A stretch of 37,179 nucleotides of DNA from Geobacter sp. (GTDB lineage: Bacteria > Desulfobacterota > Desulfuromonadia > Geobacterales > DSM-12255), in the NCBI GenBank assembly GCA_009886125.1, contig VFJK01000089.1:1-37179 (forward strand), given 5' to 3'. The notes under the pieces were generated by a model. It did no database searches. It worked only from the letters and a program-made list of their open reading frames with translations, and was not told where the DNA came from. Each line of letters begins with the position of its first letter. Within the stretch, counting starts at the first letter, position 1. Position numbers and translations under genes: made by a program. Shown here in pieces: positions 14,439 to 33,889 of this stretch.

Positions 14439-17400
14439 TTGGGTCTTGGTATTCTTATCGGTTATTATGCAAAACAGGATGAAGCCCGGAAAGCGCTCCG
14501 GGAACTATCCCGGCAAGGCTTTTACCGGACAGCCCTGGTACATAAGGGGCTGGAAGGAGAGATCAGGATCGTAGATCCATTTCTCCGGCAGCTGGCCTTC
14601 CGTGCGCTCCTGGTTGCCGGTCTGTCAGGGGGGAGTGCGGGCATTTTTGCCCTGCTTCTCCAGTGGATTCTACCCTTTTCAGCCGGGAGCATGATTGCAC
14701 CCCTCACGTTCATACCGGCTTTTTCTCTGATCGGCGCAGTGGCAGCGGTCTTTTGGCGACGACGCTCACGACTTGGCATAGAGACGGCAGTCCTGCACGA
14801 TCATGCCCGTTGGTTGGTGTCCGGGGAGTCAGTCCTGATCCTCCAGGGTCCGGTCGAATCATTTCAGGGTCCGGTGGCCATTCTGCGCGGAAGCGCCGAT
14901 ATCCCTCCGGCACTCTTCGTCATGCATCCCCGGCGCGAACGGAGGGCAGAAACACGGCTTACCGTCGTAAAGCTCTCTCCGACCCAGATCATTGAACATG
15001 CCGAGCGCCATGCCAGGGATCAGAAGGTGGAGCTCAATCCGCTTCATAGTCCCGAACTGCTCAATCGACTCAAACAGGCCCGCACCTGGGTCCGCCAGGT
15101 CTGCGCGGATCTCACCGCAGCGAGCCGCCTGGAACAGAAAGCCACGCCGGCTGCCGACTGGATACTCGATAACGAGTACATCCTGGAGGGGAATGCCCGC
15201 GATGTTCTGCTGAACCTCCCGCGGCGCTTTTACCAGCAGCTCCCCACACTGGGTTCTGAGCCATACCGGAGTATGCCGTGCATCTACGGTCTGGCCAAGG
15301 ACCTCGTCTCCCATACGGAGCTGCGCCTGGACAGCGAGAATATCCTGGCGTTTATCGGTGCACACCAATCCGTCCGCATCCTGACGATCGGCGAACTCTG
15401 GGCAATCCCCCAGATGCTCCGCATCGCCTTGATCGAAAGCATCCAGGGCCTCGCTGTCACCGCCCTTTCAGACCTCCGCGAACGTCAGTTGGCCGATTTC
15501 TGGGCGAACCGGCTGATTGTTGCCAATCGCCGCGATTCCAACCAGCTTTTTTCAATCCTGGCGGAGCTGGCAAAAGCGGAGCCGAACCCCACCGCATATT
15601 TCGGCAGCCAGCTGGTCGGACTGCTCTACGATGAAGCAGCTGCATTGTCACCGGTACAGAGCTGGCTTGAACGGAACCTCAAAAGCCCCATGCACGAAGT
15701 CATCCTGCGTGAGCAGAACCGGCAGACCAGCGAACAGATCTCCTGCGGGAATGCCTTTACCAGTCTCCGGCAGCTGGCCCAGCTGGACTGGCGCGAGATC
15801 TTCGAACAGCTCAGCAGGGTGGAGCAGGTGCTGCGACGCGATCCGGCCGGAGTCTATGCCGGGATGGATTTCGCAACCCGTGACCGCTGTCGCCGTTCGG
15901 TTGAAGAGGTTGCCCGCGCTGCCTCCAGGACTGAGGAAGAGGTCGCTGAGCAGGTCATAAAACTGGCGAAACAGGCACGGCTTGAACTGCCTGTCGATGA
16001 CCGTCGCAGCCACGTCGGCAGCTGGCTGACAGGTGCGGGGCGGGCTGACCTGGTCCGGCTGCTTTCCTGTCAAGAAACGCTCCGCTACCGGGTTCTGGAG
16101 TCGATATACCGTCACCATGCTGCTGTTTACGCCTCCGGCATCGGCGGATTCTCCGTGTTGTTTTTATTCTTGATTATTGGATCAGTCGGATCAGTCGGAT
16201 CAGTCGGATCGGTCCGATCGGTCGGATTGTTTCTGCTCCTGCTGATCCCGGTCAGCCAGCTGTCAATCGAAACCGTCAATTATCTGATCACGCGCCTGTT
16301 ACCGCCACGACCATTGCCCAAGATGGATTTCGAAGTTGCGGGGATTCCCGATGCGTTCCGCACCCTGGTAGTCGTGCCGATGATGCTGACCAACGAGGGT
16401 ACGGTCCGTGCCGAGGTGGAGAAGCTGGAGATCCGCTATCTGGCCAACAAGGAAGCAAATCTGCTCTTCAGCCTGTTCACGGACTACACCGATTCAGCCA
16501 CACTTTCCCGTGAGGATGACAGCCGTCTGCTTCAGACGGCGAGCGACTGTCTGGAAACGCTCAACGAACGTCACGGTGCAGAACGGTTTTTTCTGTTCCA
16601 TCGGGAGCGATGCTGGAGCGAATCAGAACAGAAATTCATCGGCTGGGAACGTAAACGCGGCAAGCTGGAGGAGCTGAACCGCCTGATCGACGGTACAAGA
16701 TCAGAGGCCGCACCTCCGATGGTCTACGTGGGCGACCAGGATCAACTGGCCGATGTCCGCTTTATCATCACTCTGGACAGCGATACCCAGTTGCCGCACG
16801 GAACGGCCCGCAGACTGATCGAGACCCTGGCACACCCCCTCAATCAGCCCCGCTTCGACGCTTCGGGCGGTATCATGGCCGGCTCTTACACCATCATCCA
16901 GCCGCGGGTGAGCCCGACCCTGCCGAGCACAAGCGCTTCGGCCTTCAGCAGGCTGTTTGCCGATGCAGTCGGTATCGACCCTTATACACAGGCGGTCTCC
17001 GACGTCTATCAGGACTTGAGCGGTGAAGGTTCGTACCATGGCAAGGGTATCTACGATGTACGCGCATTCAGCCGCATCCTGTCGGAACGGTTCCCTGAGA
17101 ATTGGGTATTGAGCCACGACCTGATCGAAGGTGCTCATGTCCGGGTAGGACTGGCGAGCGATATCGAGCTCTACGATGAATTCCCGCAAGGGTACCAGAG
17201 CTACAGCAGCCGGGCCCATCGCTGGATCCGGGGCGATTGGCAGATCGCAGGATGGATATTCCCGACCGTTCCTCTGGCCTCCGGCGGTCGGGGGGACAAC
17301 CCGCTCTCCATGATCAGTCGCTGGAAGATCCTCGATAACCTGCGCCGCAGTCTGTTGCCCGCCACCAGCCTTGCCCTGCTGCTGGCCTCCTGGTTCATCT

Positions 17401-20400
17401 CACCGGTTATCGGCACGATCGCAGCGCTGGTGGTCGGCATGCAGCTCCTCTTTCACCCTCTGGCGCAGCCCTTTACCATGGCTACCACCCTGAAGGGCTT
17501 GAAGTACTTCTCCCCGCCCAAGCTGCTGCACGATCTGCTCCGGGCGACTGCCGATGCGGCGCTGCTGCCGCACCAGGCGGCAGTGAGCCTGGATGCCATT
17601 GCCCGGGTATGGTACCGCCGCGTGGTCTCCGGGCGTGATCTCCTGGAGTGGACAGCTCAGGCGACTCACTGGAGCGCTTCTCGCAAGCAGCCGATCTTCA
17701 TTGCCAGCATGGCCTTGGGGAGCCTCTTCAGTATCGCGGCGAGCCTTGTGATCTGGCGCGTTATGCCGGCCAGCCTGCCGCAGGCCGCTCCATGGCTTGT
17801 TTTGTGGCTCCTCTCCCCGTTGCTCGGCTGGCTCCTGAATCTGCATCCGACCCTGCTGGAGCGGATCAAGCCGTTGTCGGGATCCGACCGCCGGTTCCTC
17901 AGGCAGATCGCCCGGCGGACCTGGCGCTACTTCTCTTCATTTGTCACTGCTGAGACCTCATGGCTTCCCCCGGACAACTACCAGGTGGCTCATCAGGACC
18001 GCCTGGCCATGCGGACGAGTCCGACCAACATCGGCCTCTGGATGACCAGTGCACTCGGAGCCCATGACTGCGGCTACCTGACGGTCAATCAGGTCATAGA
18101 AAAGCTGACCGATACCATGGCAACACTTGCCCGTCTGGAGCACCATGAAGGGCATCTGCTGAACTGGTACGATATTCAGACCCTGGTGCCGCTCGAACCC
18201 CGCTACGTCTCGACTGTCGACAGCGGCAACCTGCTGGGCGCCCTCTGGGCACTTGACCAGGGAGTTGATGAGCTGCTGCACGCCCCTCTCCTGGATAGCA
18301 AAGCCTTTGCCGGTCTGGCTGACACCGGGGAGATCCTGAAGCAGAGCGCAGCTTTGGGGACGATTTCCGGAATTGATCAAAGAAGACTCGACCAGCTCCT
18401 TGCCCGGTGGAACTCTCCACCCTCCGATGTCGCCGGAATACTCCAGCTGCAACGGCGGATGCAGGTCGATATCAGCGCCGTAGTCGCTGCATCCGGCTCA
18501 GTTCAGACCCCTCTGGACGGGAAATCAGCCACCTGGGCAGAGGAACTTCAGCAGCAGGCCACAGCTCAGCTCCGCAGCATCGACCGGTATCTCGCCTGGA
18601 TAGAGATCCTTGCAGAAAGAACCGGGGAAGAGCTTTCCCGGCTTGGGCCGGAAGCTGAGTTTGTCATCCGCAAGGACCTGATCCGGGCGCCGTCTCTGTT
18701 CGATCTTGCCCATGGCGATATCGGCTCGATCAGAGCCCTTCGCAAGCTCAAAGAGGAGTCTGTGCATGCCGGCACCCCTCTGGGGATCTGGTTCGACCGG
18801 GTACTCGCAGCATTCGCCACCAGCCAGTGGCTGGCCGGGGAGACCCTGGGGATGGCCGAAAAGCTGCTTGTCGACATCCGGGAGCTGTCAGACGGTATGA
18901 ACATGCGCTTTCTCTATGACATCAGGCGCAAGCTCTTTGCTATCGGCTACAACGTCTCCCTGAGCCGTCCGGATATCTCCAGTTACGATCTTCTGGCCAG
19001 TGAGGCGCGGCTTGGCAGTTTTGTCGCCATTGCCCGTGGAGACGTCCCTCTGGAACACTGGTTTTCTCTGGGTCGCCCCTATGGTGCTCTCGGTCGGCAG
19101 CGGGTCCTCCTCAGCTGGACCGGGACCATGTTCGAATACCTGATGCCGCTGCTGTTCCAGTCCTCTTATGTCAATTCACTTCTGGACAAGGCAGCCCGGG
19201 AAGCGGTCGAGGTCCAGATCGCCTATGGCCGCAAGCAGCGGGTGCCGTGGGGTATTTCAGAGTCAGCTTTTGCTGATCTCGACAGCAACAAGACCTATCA
19301 GTACAAGGCGTTCGGAGTGCCGGCGCTCGGCCTTAAGCGCGGCCTTGAGGAACAGCTGGTGGTCGCTCCGTATGCCACCCTGCTGGCACTGAACGTGGCT
19401 CCCGGTGAGACCGTGCAGAATCTGAAGCGATTGGCCGGTCTGGGGATGCTGGCTGATTACGGTTATTACGAAGCCATGGATTTCAGCCGGCAGACGCAGC
19501 GTGAGGGGAGACGGGGGGTGATAATCGAGGCGTATATGGCCCATCACCAGGGGATGGCATTTCTCTCCCTGACAAATTTTCTCCATGACAACCCGTTCCA
19601 GCGCCGTTTTCATAACGACTCGCGGGTGCGTGCCTTTGAGGCCCTGCTCCAGGAGCGGATACCTCTCCTGCCGCCGTTGCACCTTATCTCGACGCGGCCG
19701 GCTGAACCGACTCTGCTAAGCGGAGATCTGGTCGCAACGGCTGGAAGCAGTTTTAGCACCCCGCACACGATCATCCCCAAGAGTCTGCTTCTCAGCAACG
19801 GCAGTTACGGTTTGATGATCAGCAACAGTGGCGGAGGCTACAGCCAGTGGGGCGGTCAGGAGCTCACCCGCTGGAGGTCGGACAGTACCTGTGACAGCCT
19901 GGGGACCTTCTGTTACATCCATGAGCCCGATCAGGATCATCTCTGGTCCACAACCTTTCATCCGGTCGGAGGGAAGGTCGAAGGGTATTCTGTTGAGTTT
20001 GCCCTCGACCGGGCCGTATTCCGGCGCAGTGATAAAGGGCTGCTCACCGAAACAGAGGTCATTGTCTCGCCGGAAGACGATCTGGAGATCCGCCGGATCA
20101 CCATTGCCAATCGTTCCGGCCGGGTCCGCTCCCTCAACCTGACCAGTTACATCGAACTCTCCATGGCGCCCCACAACGCGGATCGCCAGCACCCTGCCTT
20201 CAACAAGCTGTTCATCCAGACGGAAGCAGTTCCGGAACAGCAGGCGCTCCTCGCCTACCGTCGAAAACGGAGTCAGAACGAACAGCCGCTGTATGTGGCC
20301 CATTGTCTGACGCTCGAGCAGAGCGGGAATTACAATCCACAGGAGAACAGGTGGCAATTCGAGACCGACCGGGGGCGTTTCATCGGCCGGGGCCGGACAC

Positions 20401-23400
20401 TTGCCGATCCCATGGGGGCAGTGCAGGAGCCCGGCAACAGCCAGGGTTTTGTCCTGGATCCCTGCTTAAGCCTGCGGCGGAGTTTTGCACTGAACCCGGG
20501 AGCGCGCGTCCAGCTCTCCATGGTCATAGCAGCCGGCAGTTCACGCGAGCAGGTACTTCTGATGATGGATAAGTACAGTGCTCCCCATGCTTCCGAGCGG
20601 GCCATGGATTTTGCCTGGCGTGCGGCTCAGCAGCAGTTGCAGATCCTGCATATCCAGCCTGACGAAGCACGCCGTTTCCAGCAGCTTGCAAGTCATCTGC
20701 TGTTTCCCGGACAGCTGCTGCGTGCACCTGCCGAACGCCTGGAAGAGAACCGGAAGGGACAGGCAGGCTTGTGGCCCTACGCCATATCGGGTGACCTGCC
20801 GATAGCCCTGATCACCATCGGCGAGGTCCGTGATATCAGCCTGGTCCGGCAGATGCTCCAGGCGCATACATACTGGAGGATGCACGGCCTTGCGACCGAC
20901 CTCGTCATCCTCAACGAAGAGGCCGGGAGCTATGAGCGGCCTCTTCAGGAACGTCTGGAACAGCTTATCCAGAGCCATACTGCTATTTCAGCTGCGACTG
21001 ACCGGGCGGGCGGGATCTTCCTGAAAAGCGCGGCCCATATTCCGGAAGAAGATCTGAGACTCCTCAAGGCTGTGGCCAGTGTCGTACTGGTGGCGGCACG
21101 AGGCACACTGCCCCAGCAGCTCGGGGTGCCGGTGGATGCTCCCGAGTTGATGGAACGGGTGGTCCGGAAACGCGCTCCCCGTGAGCCCACGGCTTCGCTC
21201 CCCTTCATGGAGTTGAGCTATTTCAACAGTCTCGGCGGTTTCACTCCGGACGGGCGTGAATATGCGATCTATCTCGGCCCGGATACCAACACTCCGGCCC
21301 CCTGGGTAAACGTCATCGCCAACCCGACCTTCGGGACCATGGTCAGTGAAACCGGTTCCGGCTTCACCTGGTATGGCAACAGCCAGCGTAACCGCCTGAC
21401 CGGCTGGTCGAACGATCCGGTGATGGACCCTTCAATGGAGGCGCTCTACATCCGTGATGAGGAGACCGGCATATTCTGGTCGCCGACCGCGGCGCCGATC
21501 CGTGAAGCGAATGCCTATCGGGCCCGTCACGGGGCGGGCTATACGGTGTTCGAGCATAACAGCCATGGTATCGAGCAGGAGCTGACCCTCTTCGTGCCGG
21601 TGGATGCCAGCGGTGGAGAGCCGATCAAGCTTCAGCGACTGCGGCTGACCAATGCCTCGAACAGAAGACGCCGGCTCTCGATAACCTATTATCTGGAGTT
21701 GACCCTCGGTGAAAACCGGGAGAGCACCCGGATGCATGTCATCACCAACTGGGATAACGAAGCCCAGGTGCTGCTGGCGCACAACCGCTACCATCCCGAG
21801 TACGGAGAGCGGGTCACTTTCGTGGCCATGACCCCCGAAGTCGATTCGTACGGCGGCGATCGTACCGCATTTATCGGTCGGAACCGCTCGCTGACCAGCC
21901 CGCTTGCCATGGAGCTGACCCGGCTCTCAAACCGGACCGGAGCCGGGCTCGATCCGTGCGCGGCGATCCGTACCGTTATCGAAATAGCTCCGGGCGAAAA
22001 ACGGGATATCACCGTCATGCTGGGGCAGACCGCTTCGATCGCTGCTACCCGCGAACTGGTACACCGCTACCGGGAGGACCTGTCATTCGAGAACGCTTTT
22101 GATAGTACCAGAGCCTGGTGGGATGATCTGCTCGGCACGATCCGGGTCCAGACCCCTGAACTGGCCACCGACCTTCTGCTCAACCGCTGGCTGCAGTACC
22201 AGTCCTTAAGCTGCCGCATCTGGGGGCGGTCCGCATTCTACCAGTCAGGCGGAGCCTTCGGATTCCGCGATCAGCTGCAGGATGTCATGGCGTTCCTTTA
22301 CGCTAGCCCGGGGATCGCCCGTGACCAGATCCTGCTGGCCGCCAGCCGGCAGTTCAAGGAGGGGGATGTCCAGCACTGGTGGCATGAACCGGCCGGCGCC
22401 GGTATCCGTTCGCGTATCTCCGATGACCTCCTCTGGCTTCCGTATGTGGTCGCACAGTACGTCCGGACGACCGGTGACCGGGAGATACTGGAGACGGAAG
22501 TCCCTTTCCTGAATGCCCCGCTGCTGGAAGATGATCAGCACGAACTATTCTCAATACCTGAGGTCGGCTTTGAACGCGCAACGCTCTTCGAGCACTGCCG
22601 GCGCGCTGTCAGTCGCGGTCTGACAACCGGTCCCCATGGTCTCCCCCTGATCGGGACCGGGGACTGGAACGACGGCATGAACCTGGTCGGTACCGGCGGG
22701 AAGGGAGAGAGTGTCTGGCTCGCCTGGTTCCTGTGTGATGTGCTGGAAGGGATGACCGAACTTTCAGACCTGCTGCAAAAAACCGAGATGAGCAGGGGGT
22801 ATCAGGAAGAGAGGAGTGCCCTGATCCAGCGTGTCGAACAGGCTGGCTGGGATGGTGACTGGTATCTGCGGGGGACGTTCGACGACGGCTCAATGCTCGG
22901 CTCCGCTGCGAACAGCGAGGCGAAGATCGATTCCCTTCCCCAATCGTGGGCATGGCTTTCCGGTGCTGCCGATCCTGAGCGCGCTGCCCGGGCCCTGGAG
23001 TCGGCCTGGCAGCATCTTGTTCGCGAGGATGAAGGTCTGGTGCTGCTTTTCGAACCCCCCTTCGATACCTCGGAACCTTCACCCGGCTACATCAAGGGGT
23101 ATCCTCCCGGAGTGCGGGAGAACGGGGGGCAGTACACGCATGCCGCCCTCTGGATGGCCATGGCCATGGCCCGCAAAGGGGACGGAGAACGGGCAGTGCA
23201 GCTGCTGCGCATCCTCAACCCGATCGAACATGCCCGCGATGCAGAGTCTGTCTGGCATTACGGGATCGAGCCCTACGTGGTTGCGGCAGATGTCTACCGC
23301 CTGCCCGGCCGGGTCGGACAGGGGGGGTGGTCGTGGTATACCGGTTCGGCAGCATGGATGTACCGGGCCTGGATCGAAGAGGTGCTCGGTCTGCAGATAC

Positions 23401-23633
23401 GCGGCGGGCAGCTGCGGATGAATCCGGTCATCCCCGTACAATGGAACGGTTTCACTCTCAGCTATCGGCACGGCGAAACGGTCTATGAGATCCGGGTGGA
23501 GAATCCGGACGGCTGCGGGCAGGGTGTCGCCTGGGTCGAGATGGATGGACAGCGGATGACCGCTGGAGTGATCCCTCTGGAAACGGGACTGGTGAAACAT
23601 CAGGTCGTCGTGAGGATGGGGACGCCGGAATGA
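14439..23633 (+). CDS. ndvB: Cyclic beta-1,2-glucan synthase (NdvB/ChvB/Cgs type, GT84 + GH94)
   Basis: A giant inner-membrane enzyme of 3064 residues (Brucella and Agrobacterium homologues have about 2800-2900). Start TTG with TAAGGA about 6 bases upstream. Order: membrane segments ~50-110 and ~560-615; the glucosyltransferase domain with ITLDSDTQLPHG (DSD at 780-782), LSHDLIEG and RWIRGDWQ; more membrane segments ~985-1130; a glycoamylase-like domain (WLPPDNYQ ... SWTGTMFEYLMPLLFQSSY ... YMAHHQGMAF); two beta-sandwich glucan-binding parts (GSYGLMISNSGGGYSQWGG and a second ~2250-2350); and a GH94 phosphorylase-like domain with TGDWNDGMN (GDWND 2741-2745). It polymerises UDP-glucose on itself, trims and cyclises beta-1,2-glucan for export to the periplasm, usually in osmotic adaptation. 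No exporter gene (NdvA-like) is next to it. Residues ~581-596 are an in-frame tandem repeat. Confidence 0.93.
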   Translation: MGLGILIGYYAKQDEARKALRELSRQGFYRTALVHKGLEGEIRIVDPFLRQLAFRALLVAGLSGGSAGIFALLLQWILPFSAGSMIAPLTFIPAFSLIGAVAAVFWRRRSRLGIETAVLHDHARWLVSGESVLILQGPVESFQGPVAILRGSADIPPALFVMHPRRERRAETRLTVVKLSPTQIIEHAERHARDQKVELNPLHSPELLNRLKQARTWVRQVCADLTAASRLEQKATPAADWILDNEYILEGNARDVLLNLPRRFYQQLPTLGSEPYRSMPCIYGLAKDLVSHTELRLDSENILAFIGAHQSVRILTIGELWAIPQMLRIALIESIQGLAVTALSDLRERQLADFWANRLIVANRRDSNQLFSILAELAKAEPNPTAYFGSQLVGLLYDEAAALSPVQSWLERNLKSPMHEVILREQNRQTSEQISCGNAFTSLRQLAQLDWREIFEQLSRVEQVLRRDPAGVYAGMDFATRDRCRRSVEEVARAASRTEEEVAEQVIKLAKQARLELPVDDRRSHVGSWLTGAGRADLVRLLSCQETLRYRVLESIYRHHAAVYASGIGGFSVLFLFLIIGSVGSVGSVGSVRSVGLFLLLLIPVSQLSIETVNYLITRLLPPRPLPKMDFEVAGIPDAFRTLVVVPMMLTNEGTVRAEVEKLEIRYLANKEANLLFSLFTDYTDSATLSREDDSRLLQTASDCLETLNERHGAERFFLFHRERCWSESEQKFIGWERKRGKLEELNRLIDGTRSEAAPPMVYVGDQDQLADVRFIITLDSDTQLPHGTARRLIETLAHPLNQPRFDASGGIMAGSYTIIQPRVSPTLPSTSASAFSRLFADAVGIDPYTQAVSDVYQDLSGEGSYHGKGIYDVRAFSRILSERFPENWVLSHDLIEGAHVRVGLASDIELYDEFPQGYQSYSSRAHRWIRGDWQIAGWIFPTVPLASGGRGDNPLSMISRWKILDNLRRSLLPATSLALLLASWFISPVIGTIAALVVGMQLLFHPLAQPFTMATTLKGLKYFSPPKLLHDLLRATADAALLPHQAAVSLDAIARVWYRRVVSGRDLLEWTAQATHWSASRKQPIFIASMALGSLFSIAASLVIWRVMPASLPQAAPWLVLWLLSPLLGWLLNLHPTLLERIKPLSGSDRRFLRQIARRTWRYFSSFVTAETSWLPPDNYQVAHQDRLAMRTSPTNIGLWMTSALGAHDCGYLTVNQVIEKLTDTMATLARLEHHEGHLLNWYDIQTLVPLEPRYVSTVDSGNLLGALWALDQGVDELLHAPLLDSKAFAGLADTGEILKQSAALGTISGIDQRRLDQLLARWNSPPSDVAGILQLQRRMQVDISAVVAASGSVQTPLDGKSATWAEELQQQATAQLRSIDRYLAWIEILAERTGEELSRLGPEAEFVIRKDLIRAPSLFDLAHGDIGSIRALRKLKEESVHAGTPLGIWFDRVLAAFATSQWLAGETLGMAEKLLVDIRELSDGMNMRFLYDIRRKLFAIGYNVSLSRPDISSYDLLASEARLGSFVAIARGDVPLEHWFSLGRPYGALGRQRVLLSWTGTMFEYLMPLLFQSSYVNSLLDKAAREAVEVQIAYGRKQRVPWGISESAFADLDSNKTYQYKAFGVPALGLKRGLEEQLVVAPYATLLALNVAPGETVQNLKRLAGLGMLADYGYYEAMDFSRQTQREGRRGVIIEAYMAHHQGMAFLSLTNFLHDNPFQRRFHNDSRVRAFEALLQERIPLLPPLHLISTRPAEPTLLSGDLVATAGSSFSTPHTIIPKSLLLSNGSYGLMISNSGGGYSQWGGQELTRWRSDSTCDSLGTFCYIHEPDQDHLWSTTFHPVGGKVEGYSVEFALDRAVFRRSDKGLLTETEVIVSPEDDLEIRRITIANRSGRVRSLNLTSYIELSMAPHNADRQHPAFNKLFIQTEAVPEQQALLAYRRKRSQNEQPLYVAHCLTLEQSGNYNPQENRWQFETDRGRFIGRGRTLADPMGAVQEPGNSQGFVLDPCLSLRRSFALNPGARVQLSMVIAAGSSREQVLLMMDKYSAPHASERAMDFAWRAAQQQLQILHIQPDEARRFQQLASHLLFPGQLLRAPAERLEENRKGQAGLWPYAISGDLPIALITIGEVRDISLVRQMLQAHTYWRMHGLATDLVILNEEAGSYERPLQERLEQLIQSHTAISAATDRAGGIFLKSAAHIPEEDLRLLKAVASVVLVAARGTLPQQLGVPVDAPELMERVVRKRAPREPTASLPFMELSYFNSLGGFTPDGREYAIYLGPDTNTPAPWVNVIANPTFGTMVSETGSGFTWYGNSQRNRLTGWSNDPVMDPSMEALYIRDEETGIFWSPTAAPIREANAYRARHGAGYTVFEHNSHGIEQELTLFVPVDASGGEPIKLQRLRLTNASNRRRRLSITYYLELTLGENRESTRMHVITNWDNEAQVLLAHNRYHPEYGERVTFVAMTPEVDSYGGDRTAFIGRNRSLTSPLAMELTRLSNRTGAGLDPCAAIRTVIEIAPGEKRDITVMLGQTASIAATRELVHRYREDLSFENAFDSTRAWWDDLLGTIRVQTPELATDLLLNRWLQYQSLSCRIWGRSAFYQSGGAFGFRDQLQDVMAFLYASPGIARDQILLAASRQFKEGDVQHWWHEPAGAGIRSRISDDLLWLPYVVAQYVRTTGDREILETEVPFLNAPLLEDDQHELFSIPEVGFERATLFEHCRRAVSRGLTTGPHGLPLIGTGDWNDGMNLVGTGGKGESVWLAWFLCDVLEGMTELSDLLQKTEMSRGYQEERSALIQRVEQAGWDGDWYLRGTFDDGSMLGSAANSEAKIDSLPQSWAWLSGAADPERAARALESAWQHLVREDEGLVLLFEPPFDTSEPSPGYIKGYPPGVRENGGQYTHAALWMAMAMARKGDGERAVQLLRILNPIEHARDAESVWHYGIEPYVVAADVYRLPGRVGQGGWSWYTGSAAWMYRAWIEEVLGLQIRGGQLRMNPVIPVQWNGFTLSYRHGETVYEIRVENPDGCGQGVAWVEMDGQRMTAGVIPLETGLVKHQVVVRMGTPE
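16179..16229 (+). repeat. In-frame 9-bp tandem repeat inside the glucan synthase
   Basis: GGATCAGTC occurs three times in a row (16179-16205), followed by GGATCGGTC, CGATCGGTC and a partial GGATTG. The unit is in frame and encodes Gly-Ser-Val, placed inside a membrane segment (residues ~581-597). Changes in copy number would keep the frame and alter the length of that segment. Confidence 0.93.
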
Positions 23634-24609: not shown

Positions 24610-24647
24610 CGGCTGGAGCAGGGCAGCAGCCGCATCCGGAGAGATGT

Positions 24648-26111
24648 GTGACATCAGCGCCTAAACTGTATTTACTGGATGGCTCCAGTTACATCTACCG
24701 TGCCTACTACGGGGTCAGGGACGTCGCCACGAGCAACGGGATGCCGACCAATGCCGTATTCGGTTTTACCCGGATGCTTCTCACCCTTCTGCAGGAGGAC
24801 CGCCCCGAATATCTTGCCGTCGTCTTCGATCCCCCACGGGAAGCTACCTTCCGCAGGGAGATCTACCCGGAGTACAAAGCCAACCGGGACGCCATGCCCG
24901 AAGATCTTCTCCCCCAGATCCCGTTCATCAGAAAAGTCCTGCTGGCTCTCAATATACCGGCGCTGGAAGCTCCCGGTTTTGAGGCCGACGATGTCATTGC
25001 CACCCTTGCCCGCCGGTATGCTGCGGAAGGGGTCGAGGTGACGGTCGTCACCGGTGACAAGGATCTGCTCCAGATCGTCAACGACCGGATCAGCCTGCTC
25101 GATACCATGAAAGAGAAACGTTCCGGGCCGCAGGAGGTACTGGAGCGCTTCGGTGTCCCGCCGGAGCTGGTGGCGGATGTCCTCGGGCTGGCTGGCGACA
25201 GTGCCGACAATATTCCCGGAGTTCCCGGCATCGGCGAGAAGACCGCCAGCGAGCTGGTCCGCAGGTTCGGTTCGCTGGAAGAAGTCCTCCAATGGCGGAG
25301 CATGGTCAGCGGCAAACAGCGCCGGGGTAATCTGCGTATCCATGCAGACCAGGCCCGGCTCTCGAAGGTCCTTGCAACCGTCCGCTATGATGTCCCTCTG
25401 GATATCCCCCTTGCAGCTCTGCAGCGCCAGTCGCCGAACCTGACCGAACTGATCCCTCTGCTGCGGGAGCTGGAGTTTGCGAATCTGGAGGTCGCCTTCA
25501 CCCCGCCTCCTGTCGGTGTCGTCGAGATCTACAGCGACGGCTCCGGTAGAGAGTCCGGTCCCGGCGGCTATGGCGTGATCCTGCGCTACGGCGAGCATGA
25601 GAAGGAACTGAGCGGTTTTGAGCCCGCTTCCACCTCGCAGCGGATGGAACTCACTGCGGCGATCAGGGGGCTGGAGGCGCTGACTTCCCGCAAAAGAGTG
25701 CGACTGCTGAGCGACTCACAGTATCTTGTCCGGGGGATGAGCGAATGGCTGCCGGGCTGGATCCGTGCCGGACGTCTGGAGAGTCCGGAAGCGCTCAGGA
25801 ATCAGGATCTCTGGCAGCGGCTGGCCGCGCTTTCCACGGATCATGAGATCATCTGGGAGTGGGTGCGAGGCCATGCGGGGAATCACTTCAACGAGCGCTG
25901 CGACAGACTGGCAAAGCGGGCAGCAGACGAGGGGATAAAGGCGGTAGAGAAGGAAGCCCTGGCGGCGGCAGCGGCAAAAACAGCCGGGGAGCACGCCAGG
26001 GAAGAGCAGGCCCTCCGGGTGCCGGTCGAAACTGTTCATCAGGCAGCGGCTGCGGTCAGGGGTGATCTGCAGTTCAAGGCTGATGACGATGGCCAGCTTC
26101 TGCTCTGTTAA
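24648..26111 (+). CDS. Fusion of PolA-type 5'-3' exonuclease (FEN) and RNase HI
   Basis: 487 residues, GTG start with GGAGA about 6 bases upstream. Residues 1-~285 form the 5'-nuclease domain of DNA polymerase I: LYLLDGSSYIYRAYYG (Asp11), YKANRDAMP, FEADDVIATL (Glu112, Asp114, Asp115), TGDKDLLQ (Asp137, Asp139) and the helix-three-turn-helix DNA-binding stretch with GDSADNIPGVPGIGEKTA. Residues ~291-428 form a complete type 1 RNase H: YSDGSG (Asp297), RMELTAAIRGLEAL (Glu334), LLSDSQYLVRG (Asp356) and WVRGHAGNHFNERCD (His409, Asp419). A ~55-residue Ala/Glu-rich tail follows. No polymerase or 3'-5' exonuclease domain is present. The combination suggests removal of RNA primers or RNA-DNA hybrids from both the nick and within the hybrid; this role is inferred. 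Confidence 0.93.
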   Translation: MTSAPKLYLLDGSSYIYRAYYGVRDVATSNGMPTNAVFGFTRMLLTLLQEDRPEYLAVVFDPPREATFRREIYPEYKANRDAMPEDLLPQIPFIRKVLLALNIPALEAPGFEADDVIATLARRYAAEGVEVTVVTGDKDLLQIVNDRISLLDTMKEKRSGPQEVLERFGVPPELVADVLGLAGDSADNIPGVPGIGEKTASELVRRFGSLEEVLQWRSMVSGKQRRGNLRIHADQARLSKVLATVRYDVPLDIPLAALQRQSPNLTELIPLLRELEFANLEVAFTPPPVGVVEIYSDGSGRESGPGGYGVILRYGEHEKELSGFEPASTSQRMELTAAIRGLEALTSRKRVRLLSDSQYLVRGMSEWLPGWIRAGRLESPEALRNQDLWQRLAALSTDHEIIWEWVRGHAGNHFNERCDRLAKRAADEGIKAVEKEALAAAAAKTAGEHAREEQALRVPVETVHQAAAAVRGDLQFKADDDGQLLLC

Positions 26112-26132: not shown

Positions 26133-26654
26133 ATGAAAATACAGAGATTATCTGAAGAAAACCGCCCCAAGGTCTATGCGCTGCTACAGCGTGCCTTTCC
26201 ATACAGTACCTGTGAAGCGGAACTGGTGCAGAAGCTCCACGAAAACGGCAAACCCCTGCACGAATGGGTCTGCATCCATACCAACAAGGTCATCGCCTAC
26301 ATCGCCTTTTCCAGTGCCTGGCATGGCAGCGAGATCTGCGGTCTGCACCTGGCCCCCATGGCCGTGACACCCGACTTCCAGAAGCAGGGGGTGGGGTCGG
26401 AGCTGCTCCGGTTTGCACTACGGCAGGAAGCGATCAAAAGCCAGCCCCTCTTTGTCCTCGGCAAGCCCGATTATTACCGCCGGTTCGGTTTTGAACCGTG
26501 CAAGATGCCCATCTGCCCGTTCGATAAGAACAACACGCATTTTCTCAGCATGCGCCATACCTCCGCAGCCCTCTACGTTGTCGGTTATGAACCGGAGTTC
26601 AAGCCTGCTGAAAAACCGCCCGTCCCGAAAATGAAGACGCGCCGGGGAAGGTGA
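26133..26654 (+). CDS. GNAT family N-acetyltransferase (YhbS-like)
   Basis: 173 residues. The acetyl-CoA-binding signature is LAPMAVTPDFQKQGVGSELL (Q/RxxGxG/A pattern), and VLGKPDYYRRFGFEP is the typical YhbS-group motif at the end of the fold. The N-terminus starts with a helix containing LLQRAFPYSTCEAELVQKL, also typical of the group. The acyl acceptor is unknown. The C-terminal 20 residues are Pro/Lys/Arg-rich. It lies 21 bp after the exonuclease-RNase H gene and is probably co-transcribed; GAGGA precedes the ATG. Confidence 0.88.
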   Translation: MKIQRLSEENRPKVYALLQRAFPYSTCEAELVQKLHENGKPLHEWVCIHTNKVIAYIAFSSAWHGSEICGLHLAPMAVTPDFQKQGVGSELLRFALRQEAIKSQPLFVLGKPDYYRRFGFEPCKMPICPFDKNNTHFLSMRHTSAALYVVGYEPEFKPAEKPPVPKMKTRRGR

Positions 26655-32929: not shown

Positions 32930-33889
32930 ATGGTAGCATCTTTCCAGCAGCGACTGCAGGCAGTAAACCCGGAGTACGAGACCTTTGAAGGCCTGCAGAC
33001 ACTGCAGGTCAATCTGGGAAATCTCTGTAACCTGAACTGCAGCCACTGCCATGTGGGCGCTTCCAGTCGCGGGACTAAAGTCATGGGACTGGAGGTGATG
33101 GATCAGATAGCCGGGTTCCTTTCGTGTCATCCCGGTCTTACCCTTGATATAACCGGTGGCTGCCCGGAGATGAACCCGGACTTCCGTTATTTCGTCGAGC
33201 AGACAGCAGGGTTGGTGCCGCGCCGGCTGCTCCGGAGCAACCTGGCGATCATGGTTGAGGAGGGGTGGGAGTGGCTGCCGGAATTCTGCAGGAGTCAGGA
33301 ACTGACCATTGTCGGGTCGCTTCCCTGCTATCTGGAGGACAATGTCACGCGGCAGCGTGGCACAGAAGTTTATATGAAAAGTATCCAGGCCTTGAAACAG
33401 CTGAATGCTCTTGGCTACGGTTCAACGCTGGAGCTGGACCTGGTCTACAACCCGGGCGGGAATTTTGTCTCCGGTTCCCAGCAGGAACTGGAAGCGGCCT
33501 ACAAGAATCAGCTTTCCGATAATCACGGGATTATCTTCAATAACCTTTTCACCATCACCAACGCACCGATCGGCCGATTCAAAGAGCATCTTGACGCTGA
33601 AGGTAAATTCGCCGATTACCTGCGACTGCTGGCCGGGAGCTTCAATCCTGAGACTGCCGGCAATATCATGTGCCGTACCCTGATAAGCGTCGACTGGCGG
33701 GGGAGGATTTTCAACTGTGATTTCAATCAGGCGCTGCAGATGCCGGTGACGGCAGAAGATGGTTCTGAAATAACCATTGGGGTGCTGGAGAGTGACAATC
33801 TGAACGGTACGAGGATACTGCTTTCGCAGCACTGCTACTGCTGTACTGCCGGGGAGGGGTCGAGCTGTACCGGGGCGCTGGTCGGTTAG
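32930..33889 (+). CDS. arsS: Arsenosugar biosynthesis radical-SAM protein ArsS
   Basis: 319 residues. The radical-SAM cluster motif is CNLNCSHC (Cys33, 37, 40); TLDITGGCPEMNP follows as the SAM-binding region. The C-terminal half matches the Cys-rich DUF3641 domain, with NIMCRTLISVDWRGRIFNCD and the end HCYCCTAGEGSSCTGAL (Cys302, 304, 305, 313). This is the layout of ArsS, which joins a 5'-deoxyadenosyl group to dimethylarsenic compounds to build arsenosugars; some relatives carry selenocysteine in the terminal motif, whereas this copy uses only Cys. The arsenic methyltransferase ArsM, its usual partner, is not in the window. It is the last gene of the operon, 8 bp after the VTT gene. Confidence 0.9.
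   Translation: MVASFQQRLQAVNPEYETFEGLQTLQVNLGNLCNLNCSHCHVGASSRGTKVMGLEVMDQIAGFLSCHPGLTLDITGGCPEMNPDFRYFVEQTAGLVPRRLLRSNLAIMVEEGWEWLPEFCRSQELTIVGSLPCYLEDNVTRQRGTEVYMKSIQALKQLNALGYGSTLELDLVYNPGGNFVSGSQQELEAAYKNQLSDNHGIIFNNLFTITNAPIGRFKEHLDAEGKFADYLRLLAGSFNPETAGNIMCRTLISVDWRGRIFNCDFNQALQMPVTAEDGSEITIGVLESDNLNGTRILLSQHCYCCTAGEGSSCTGALVG

Follow-up and report, generated by a model that had tools for sequence, protein, structure and literature searches.

The locus analysed here, in a window of 37,179 nucleotides (the whole stretch of DNA under study), raises the question why a Geobacter sp. would encode, on one polypeptide, the two kinds of nuclease that act on RNA primers. How primer removal is divided among RNase H, the 5'-nuclease of DNA polymerase I and free-standing flap endonucleases (FENs) in bacteria is still debated (PMC10191290, PMC13082043). 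From what follows we infer, with a probability of roughly 0.5, that the fusion is an accessory nuclease with dual activity on RNA primers or RNA-DNA hybrids that is probably tethered to the beta-clamp. The gene itself, its complete active sites, its predicted fold, its conserved tail, its single origin and the retained polA, rnhA and rnhB are results of the analysis, whereas the two activities, the clamp contact and the substrate are what these results would imply.

Domain architecture and active sites

The fusion gene and the elements discussed below are located as follows (window positions, all on the forward strand):

24648..26111, +, whole fusion gene, 487 aa (open reading frame list and translation; orthologues in 62 genomes)
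24638..24643, +, probable ribosome-binding site GGAGAG, 4 bases upstream of the GTG (read from the sequence)
24663..25154, +, 5'-nuclease N-terminal (resolvase-like) domain, residues 6-169 (PF02739, 5_3_exonuc_N, 205.8 bits, E 4e-61)
25155..25439, +, 5'-nuclease C-terminal SAM-fold / helix-3-turn-helix domain, residues 170-264 (PF01367, 5_3_exonuc, 101 bits, E 5e-29)
25488..25520, +, short interdomain linker, residues 281-291 (58-sequence alignment; mean column identity 84%)
25521..25925, +, RNase HI domain, residues 292-426 (PF00075, RNase_H, 120.5 bits, E 8e-35; NCBIfam RNase HI; fold matches to E. coli RNase HI)
25932..26072, +, variable linker, residues 429-475 (mean column identity about 52%; low pLDDT at about 461-470)
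26088..26108, +, conserved C-terminal tip DGQLLLC, candidate beta-clamp-binding motif (conserved across 58 full-length copies)
26133..26654, +, GNAT-family acetyltransferase, recurrent same-strand neighbour (Pfam; position relative to the fusion across genomes)

The reading frame opens with a GTG start codon. An earlier note, made from the letters alone, had read the product as a PolA-type 5'-3' exonuclease joined to a complete RNase HI with no polymerase domain behind them, and the Pfam search agrees on both counts: three nuclease domains, each scoring well in excess of its cut-off, are the only matches within the 487 residues, none of them a polymerase domain, and a scan of the genome places PF02739 at the same position. 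Against the curated NCBIfam models, of which DNA polymerase I and RNase HI match best, DNA polymerase I reaches 338.6 bits for a cut-off of 720 and matches residues 6-282 only, RNase HI barely passes (160.4 for a cut-off of 160, residues 292-430), and the stand-alone FEN families (PRK14976 types and Xni) stay below their cut-offs (195.7 for 305, 191.3 for 434 and 169.5 for 261). The metal-binding carboxylates, the H3TH/SAM domain (PF01367) and the fold matches together place the first domain among the PolA-type 5'-nucleases/FENs.

AlphaFold predicts two well-folded domains and an uncertain linker (mean pLDDT 93.5, pTM 0.85). The RNase H domain closes with a long helix (413-456), and confidence is low around 461-470; the model of a second homologue gives the same picture (pLDDT 92.9, pTM 0.84). 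In Foldseek searches the first domain resembles the Mycobacterium smegmatis flap endonuclease, ExoIX and Taq, and the second E. coli RNase HI structures, while among the 50 matches listed there was no PDB entry with both nucleases.

Every catalytic residue that had been named in the earlier note is present in the protein. Across 58 full-length homologues, D11, E112, D114, D115, D137, D139 and D187 of the 5'-nuclease are invariant, as are Y76, K77 and R80 of the arch YK..R; D61 is either D or E, and D184 is D in 57 of the 58. In the RNase HI, the D-E-D-D residues and the flexible-loop histidine (D297, E334, D356, H409, D419) are likewise invariant. Since both catalytic sites are essentially invariant in these class-wide homologues, both are under selection, and since nearly all their carboxylates are conserved, we take both nucleases to be active; the intact sites and the confident AlphaFold model thus argue for a working 5'-nuclease and a working RNase HI.

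Changes in the loops and the handle of the RNase HI domain suggest altered substrate handling. Its handle reads GRLESPEALRN in place of GWINSKKDPVLN in the RnhA of the same genome, with loss of lysines and of the tryptophan, and W367, W371 and R373 are retained in the handle region. The handle is also less basic than that of RnhA (window 25764-25802, residues 373-385). The first loop is shortened to SGRESGPGG, for ACSGNPGPGG in RnhA (window 25536-25565, residues 297-306), and ahead of the catalytic glutamate S-Q replaces N-N, with S330 and Q331 invariant in 58/58 sequences.

Distribution and origin of the fusion

The fusion is found in a single frame, one copy each, in 62 of 277 Desulfuromonadia genomes from 16 families (64 genomes were listed by the survey, two of which have an ordinary polA only, judged by length and range, and were left out). 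Within the order, 27 of 141 genomes have it, whereas at the same threshold it occurs in 0 of 378 genomes sampled from the phylum outside the class. In a scan with one genome per GTDB species, all seven full-length or nearly full-length matches belong to Desulfuromonadia by lineage; that scan relies on exact short peptides, such that distant independent fusions elsewhere could escape it. Phages and plasmids (tblastn) and IMG/VR gave only partial matches to one domain and no copy of the fusion, on which grounds an origin from a phage or plasmid was rejected.

That two genes were joined by an error of assembly or annotation, which the earlier note had named as the finding that would overturn its observation, has nothing in its favour, is refuted by the homologues and can be dismissed. 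The same junction recurs in the 62 genomes, including one-contig assemblies (G017, G022, G035, G039, G043 and G203 among them), and the interdomain linker (residues 281-291) is as conserved as the domains in the 58-sequence alignment. A few fusions of the class are interrupted at contig ends, and one is spread over two contigs.

The host genome has a separate full-length polA (C111), rnhA (C29) and rnhB (C153), and the PolA 5'-nuclease and RnhA retain their active-site residues. A rescue of degenerate host enzymes was hence rejected for the window's genome, where PolA and RnhA are both intact by sequence. Nearly all examined carriers of the order similarly show three matches, namely the fusion, polA and rnhA. 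Because the separate polA, rnhA and rnhB are kept, the fusion is accessory, an addition and not a replacement.

The 5'-nuclease of the fusion is 56% identical to the host PolA, and its RNase HI is 55% identical to the host RnhA. In the 5'-nuclease tree the 30 sampled fusions form one clade (100/100), which falls within the PolA of the class (100/92) and there joins the PolA of Geobacterales (99/83). The simplest reading of this tree would be a single duplication of the 5' part of polA within the lineage, followed by fusion to an RNase HI; the stem branch of the fusion clade is long, which leaves the exact depth of the origin uncertain. The RNase HI domains also form one clade, apart from the rnhA of the order and the phylum (100/100), in an alignment whose 140 columns are too few to place the source.

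The tree of the fusion conflicts with that of polA. Among 11 carriers from a single order, the three families come out as such in the polA tree and not in the fusion tree, and fusion trees in which family f1 or f3 is held together are rejected (AU p 0.02 and 0.01). The fusion in the window is 75% identical to a copy from its own genus versus 77% to a copy from another family. Horizontal transfer within the class together with losses appears to fit the patchy distribution best. Two of the records (L077 and L081) are probably contaminated or mislabelled: a PolA whose contig bears the name Candidatus Marinimicrobia groups among alphaproteobacteria, and the Brucella-like polA matches include a contig with the label Bacillus subtilis SK6B4.

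A conserved C-terminal tail

Behind a linker of variable length, full-length fusions end in DGQ(L/F)x(L)(C/Y/V), with an identity of 88% in this tip versus a mean column identity of 52% in the linker. Counted from the end, Q at -5 is found in 57/58 copies, L, F or Y at -4 in 56/58, L or F at -2 in 57/58 and C, Y or V as the last residue in 57/58 (C in 50, Y in 5, V in 2); an aromatic residue at -12 is conserved in 56/58. The exception, G241, has one extra residue and Q at -6. A catalytic or modified role of the C-terminal cysteine is unlikely, as some copies have Y or V instead.

In bacteria, clamp-binding motifs follow the consensus Q-phi-x-(L/M)-(F/L) (PMC13254535), and the motif is frequently C-terminal, in the form QLxLF (PMC4549789). 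Within the same genome, DnaE carries QVSLF and DinB carries QLPLF. The tip of the fusion fits the consensus at positions 1, 2 and 4 but has C, Y or V instead of F or L at position 5, and we hence regard it as a candidate, if imperfect, beta-clamp-binding motif. None of 564 neighbouring mechanical open reading frames has a comparable C-terminal motif, nor does such a tip occur at the C-termini of the host PolA and RnhA. Searched as a DNA pattern in the host genome, endings of the type QLxL(F/C) are no commoner than a reversed control, and the sole long open frame besides the fusion that ends in this way is an ORF of 365 aa.

AlphaFold draws the tail, in the fusion and in the homologue alike, as two short hairpin-like strands with a pLDDT near 70. 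Together with the conserved aromatic residue at -12, these models indicate that the tail may dock on the fusion itself, which makes intramolecular docking a live alternative to clamp binding.

Genomic neighbourhood

The context of the fusion gene varies from genome to genome, and beyond a GNAT gene there is no fixed operon; a conserved operon was therefore rejected, with GNAT as the sole widely recurrent neighbour. This gene is present in 39 of 62 carriers versus 47 of 209 non-carriers (Fisher p 7e-9, a value that is not corrected for relatedness). Where both genes occur, the distance between them is at most 6 kb in 29 of 39 genomes and at most 300 bp in 22, and in the loci that were clustered GNAT is on the same strand as the fusion. 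As the linkage extends to the deep-branching fusions of G275 and G168, GNAT may be an ancestral partner gene of the fusion. Neither the fusion nor the GNAT matched any family of the PADLOC models, and a known anti-phage defence gene was rejected accordingly.

A DEAD-box helicase with a DbpA-like C-terminus is encoded near the fusion on the same strand in about 7-8 of the 62 loci, from four families (L240, L248, L252, L254, L262, L276 and L277), mostly directly upstream or two genes away.

Proposed function and alternative explanations

As for the mechanism, we propose that the RNase HI of the fusion would make internal cuts in the RNA of primers or hybrids and that the PolA-derived flap nuclease, working from the 5' end, would clear the leftover ribonucleotides together with the RNA-DNA junction. 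This junction is poorly cleared by RNase HI. The flexible tail DGQLxL(C/Y/V) would keep the enzyme attached to the clamp, in the wake of the polymerase, and one polypeptide would thereby combine the tasks that eukaryotes leave to FEN1 and RNase H2 on PCNA. Two observations from other organisms form the background to such a scheme: in B. subtilis, FenA and RNase HIII share the removal of Okazaki RNA (PMC10191290; PMC13082043), and FEN1 and RNase H2 sit jointly on PCNA (PMC11731006). In its full form, the proposal would be a one-polypeptide remover of Okazaki primers (FEN, RNase HI and clamp tether). It would have arisen a single time in Desulfuromonadia, from a duplicated PolA, and have spread between lineages, frequently together with GNAT; alongside Pol I it would give bacteria another, clamp-held route, to which FEN1-RNase H2 on PCNA would be a convergent counterpart. 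We put this forward tentatively and would not bet on all its parts at even odds. As the gene is missing from most of the class and stands beside intact polA, rnhA and rnhB, it must be dispensable for routine primer removal. This speaks against the proposal, as do the imperfect last residue of the clamp motif, the possible docking of the tail on the protein and the RNase HI handle with its lost lysines and tryptophan. The earlier note had thought of a free-standing fused enzyme for Okazaki fragments or R-loops; its domain reading was right and its class of explanation is still the best one, but the conserved tail, the single origin with patchy spread, the separate polA, rnhA and rnhB kept by the host and the linked GNAT had escaped it.

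The main rival to primer removal is a role in the clean-up of R-loops or RNA-DNA hybrids and in repair, at transcription-replication conflicts or DNA damage and not at routine Okazaki fragments, where the RNase HI would cut the hybrid and the flap nuclease trim displaced or RNA-tailed 5' ends. An accessory, patchy gene beside intact polA, rnhA and rnhB suits such conditional repair, and so does the DbpA-like helicase just upstream of most of the fusions that have it, in four families; yet this link concerns so few of the loci, and the tail resembles a replication-clamp motif, that we consider the R-loop or repair role rather unlikely.

The patchiness of the fusion, the conflict of its tree with polA, its changing contexts and the strong GNAT linkage would also be expected of a horizontally mobile accessory gene that serves a mobile element or conflict system, in replication or defence, with GNAT as its partner. 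We hold this to be improbable, as the PADLOC search was without a match, phage, plasmid and viral records are without the fusion, and the gene sits among ordinary chromosomal neighbours, as one copy per genome across 16 families. Lastly, one of the two domains could be a nucleic-acid-binding module only, be it that a poorly active flap nuclease aims the RNase HI or the reverse. The handle of this RNase HI, unlike that of RnhA, might indeed leave substrate binding to the other domain; against it, nearly all metal-binding carboxylates of both sites are invariant in the 58 sequences, which makes a mere binding role a long shot.

Relation to known enzymes

With DNA polymerase I, the source of its first domain, the fusion shares the two 5'-nuclease Pfam domains, but it lacks the 3'-5' exonuclease and polymerase parts and has RNase HI instead. 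Like the free-standing FENs (B. subtilis FenA/YpcP, M. smegmatis FenA, E. coli Xni/ExoIX), it is a second flap nuclease of the same fold, independent of Pol I; those are single-domain proteins, whereas the fusion is PolA-derived, carries the RNase HI and the tail, and scores below their curated cut-offs. It shares the complete D-E-D-D-H active site of RnhA but differs from it in its separate clade (100/100) and its altered handle and substrate loops. Bacterial fusions of RNase HI are known from SCO2299 and Rv2228c/MSMEG_4305, with an acid phosphatase/CobC (PMC1950709; PMC7466739); they too join RNase HI to a second enzyme, but that partner is a phosphatase, and in the present fusion it is a nuclease of the same pathway. 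The eukaryotic PCNA-FEN1-RNase H2 assembly likewise brings a flap nuclease and an RNase H to a sliding clamp for primer removal, with separate proteins and H2 in place of one polypeptide, RNase HI and a candidate beta-clamp tip.

No published description of a FEN-RNase HI fusion was found in the open-licence PMC literature. The fusion is a genuine and conserved combination of domains that is undescribed as far as this searched literature shows; its proposed mechanism is plausible and open to testing, and its component parts are of known kinds. With the two nucleases naturally joined, a candidate clamp tether attached and the normal enzymes still in the cell, the coupling of both steps on the clamp can be tested directly, and genera in which only some species have the gene lend themselves to natural comparisons. 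The GNAT linkage further points to a possible unrecognised partner of the fusion.

Other genes in the window

Upstream of the fusion, at 14439-23633 (+), the window encodes a protein of 3064 aa with GH94, glucoamylase-like and glycosyltransferase domains (cyclic beta-glucan synthase type). At 32930-33889 (+) lies the gene of a radical SAM protein with a DUF3641 C-terminus, which adjoins those of a VTT-domain protein and a pyridine nucleotide-disulphide oxidoreductase.
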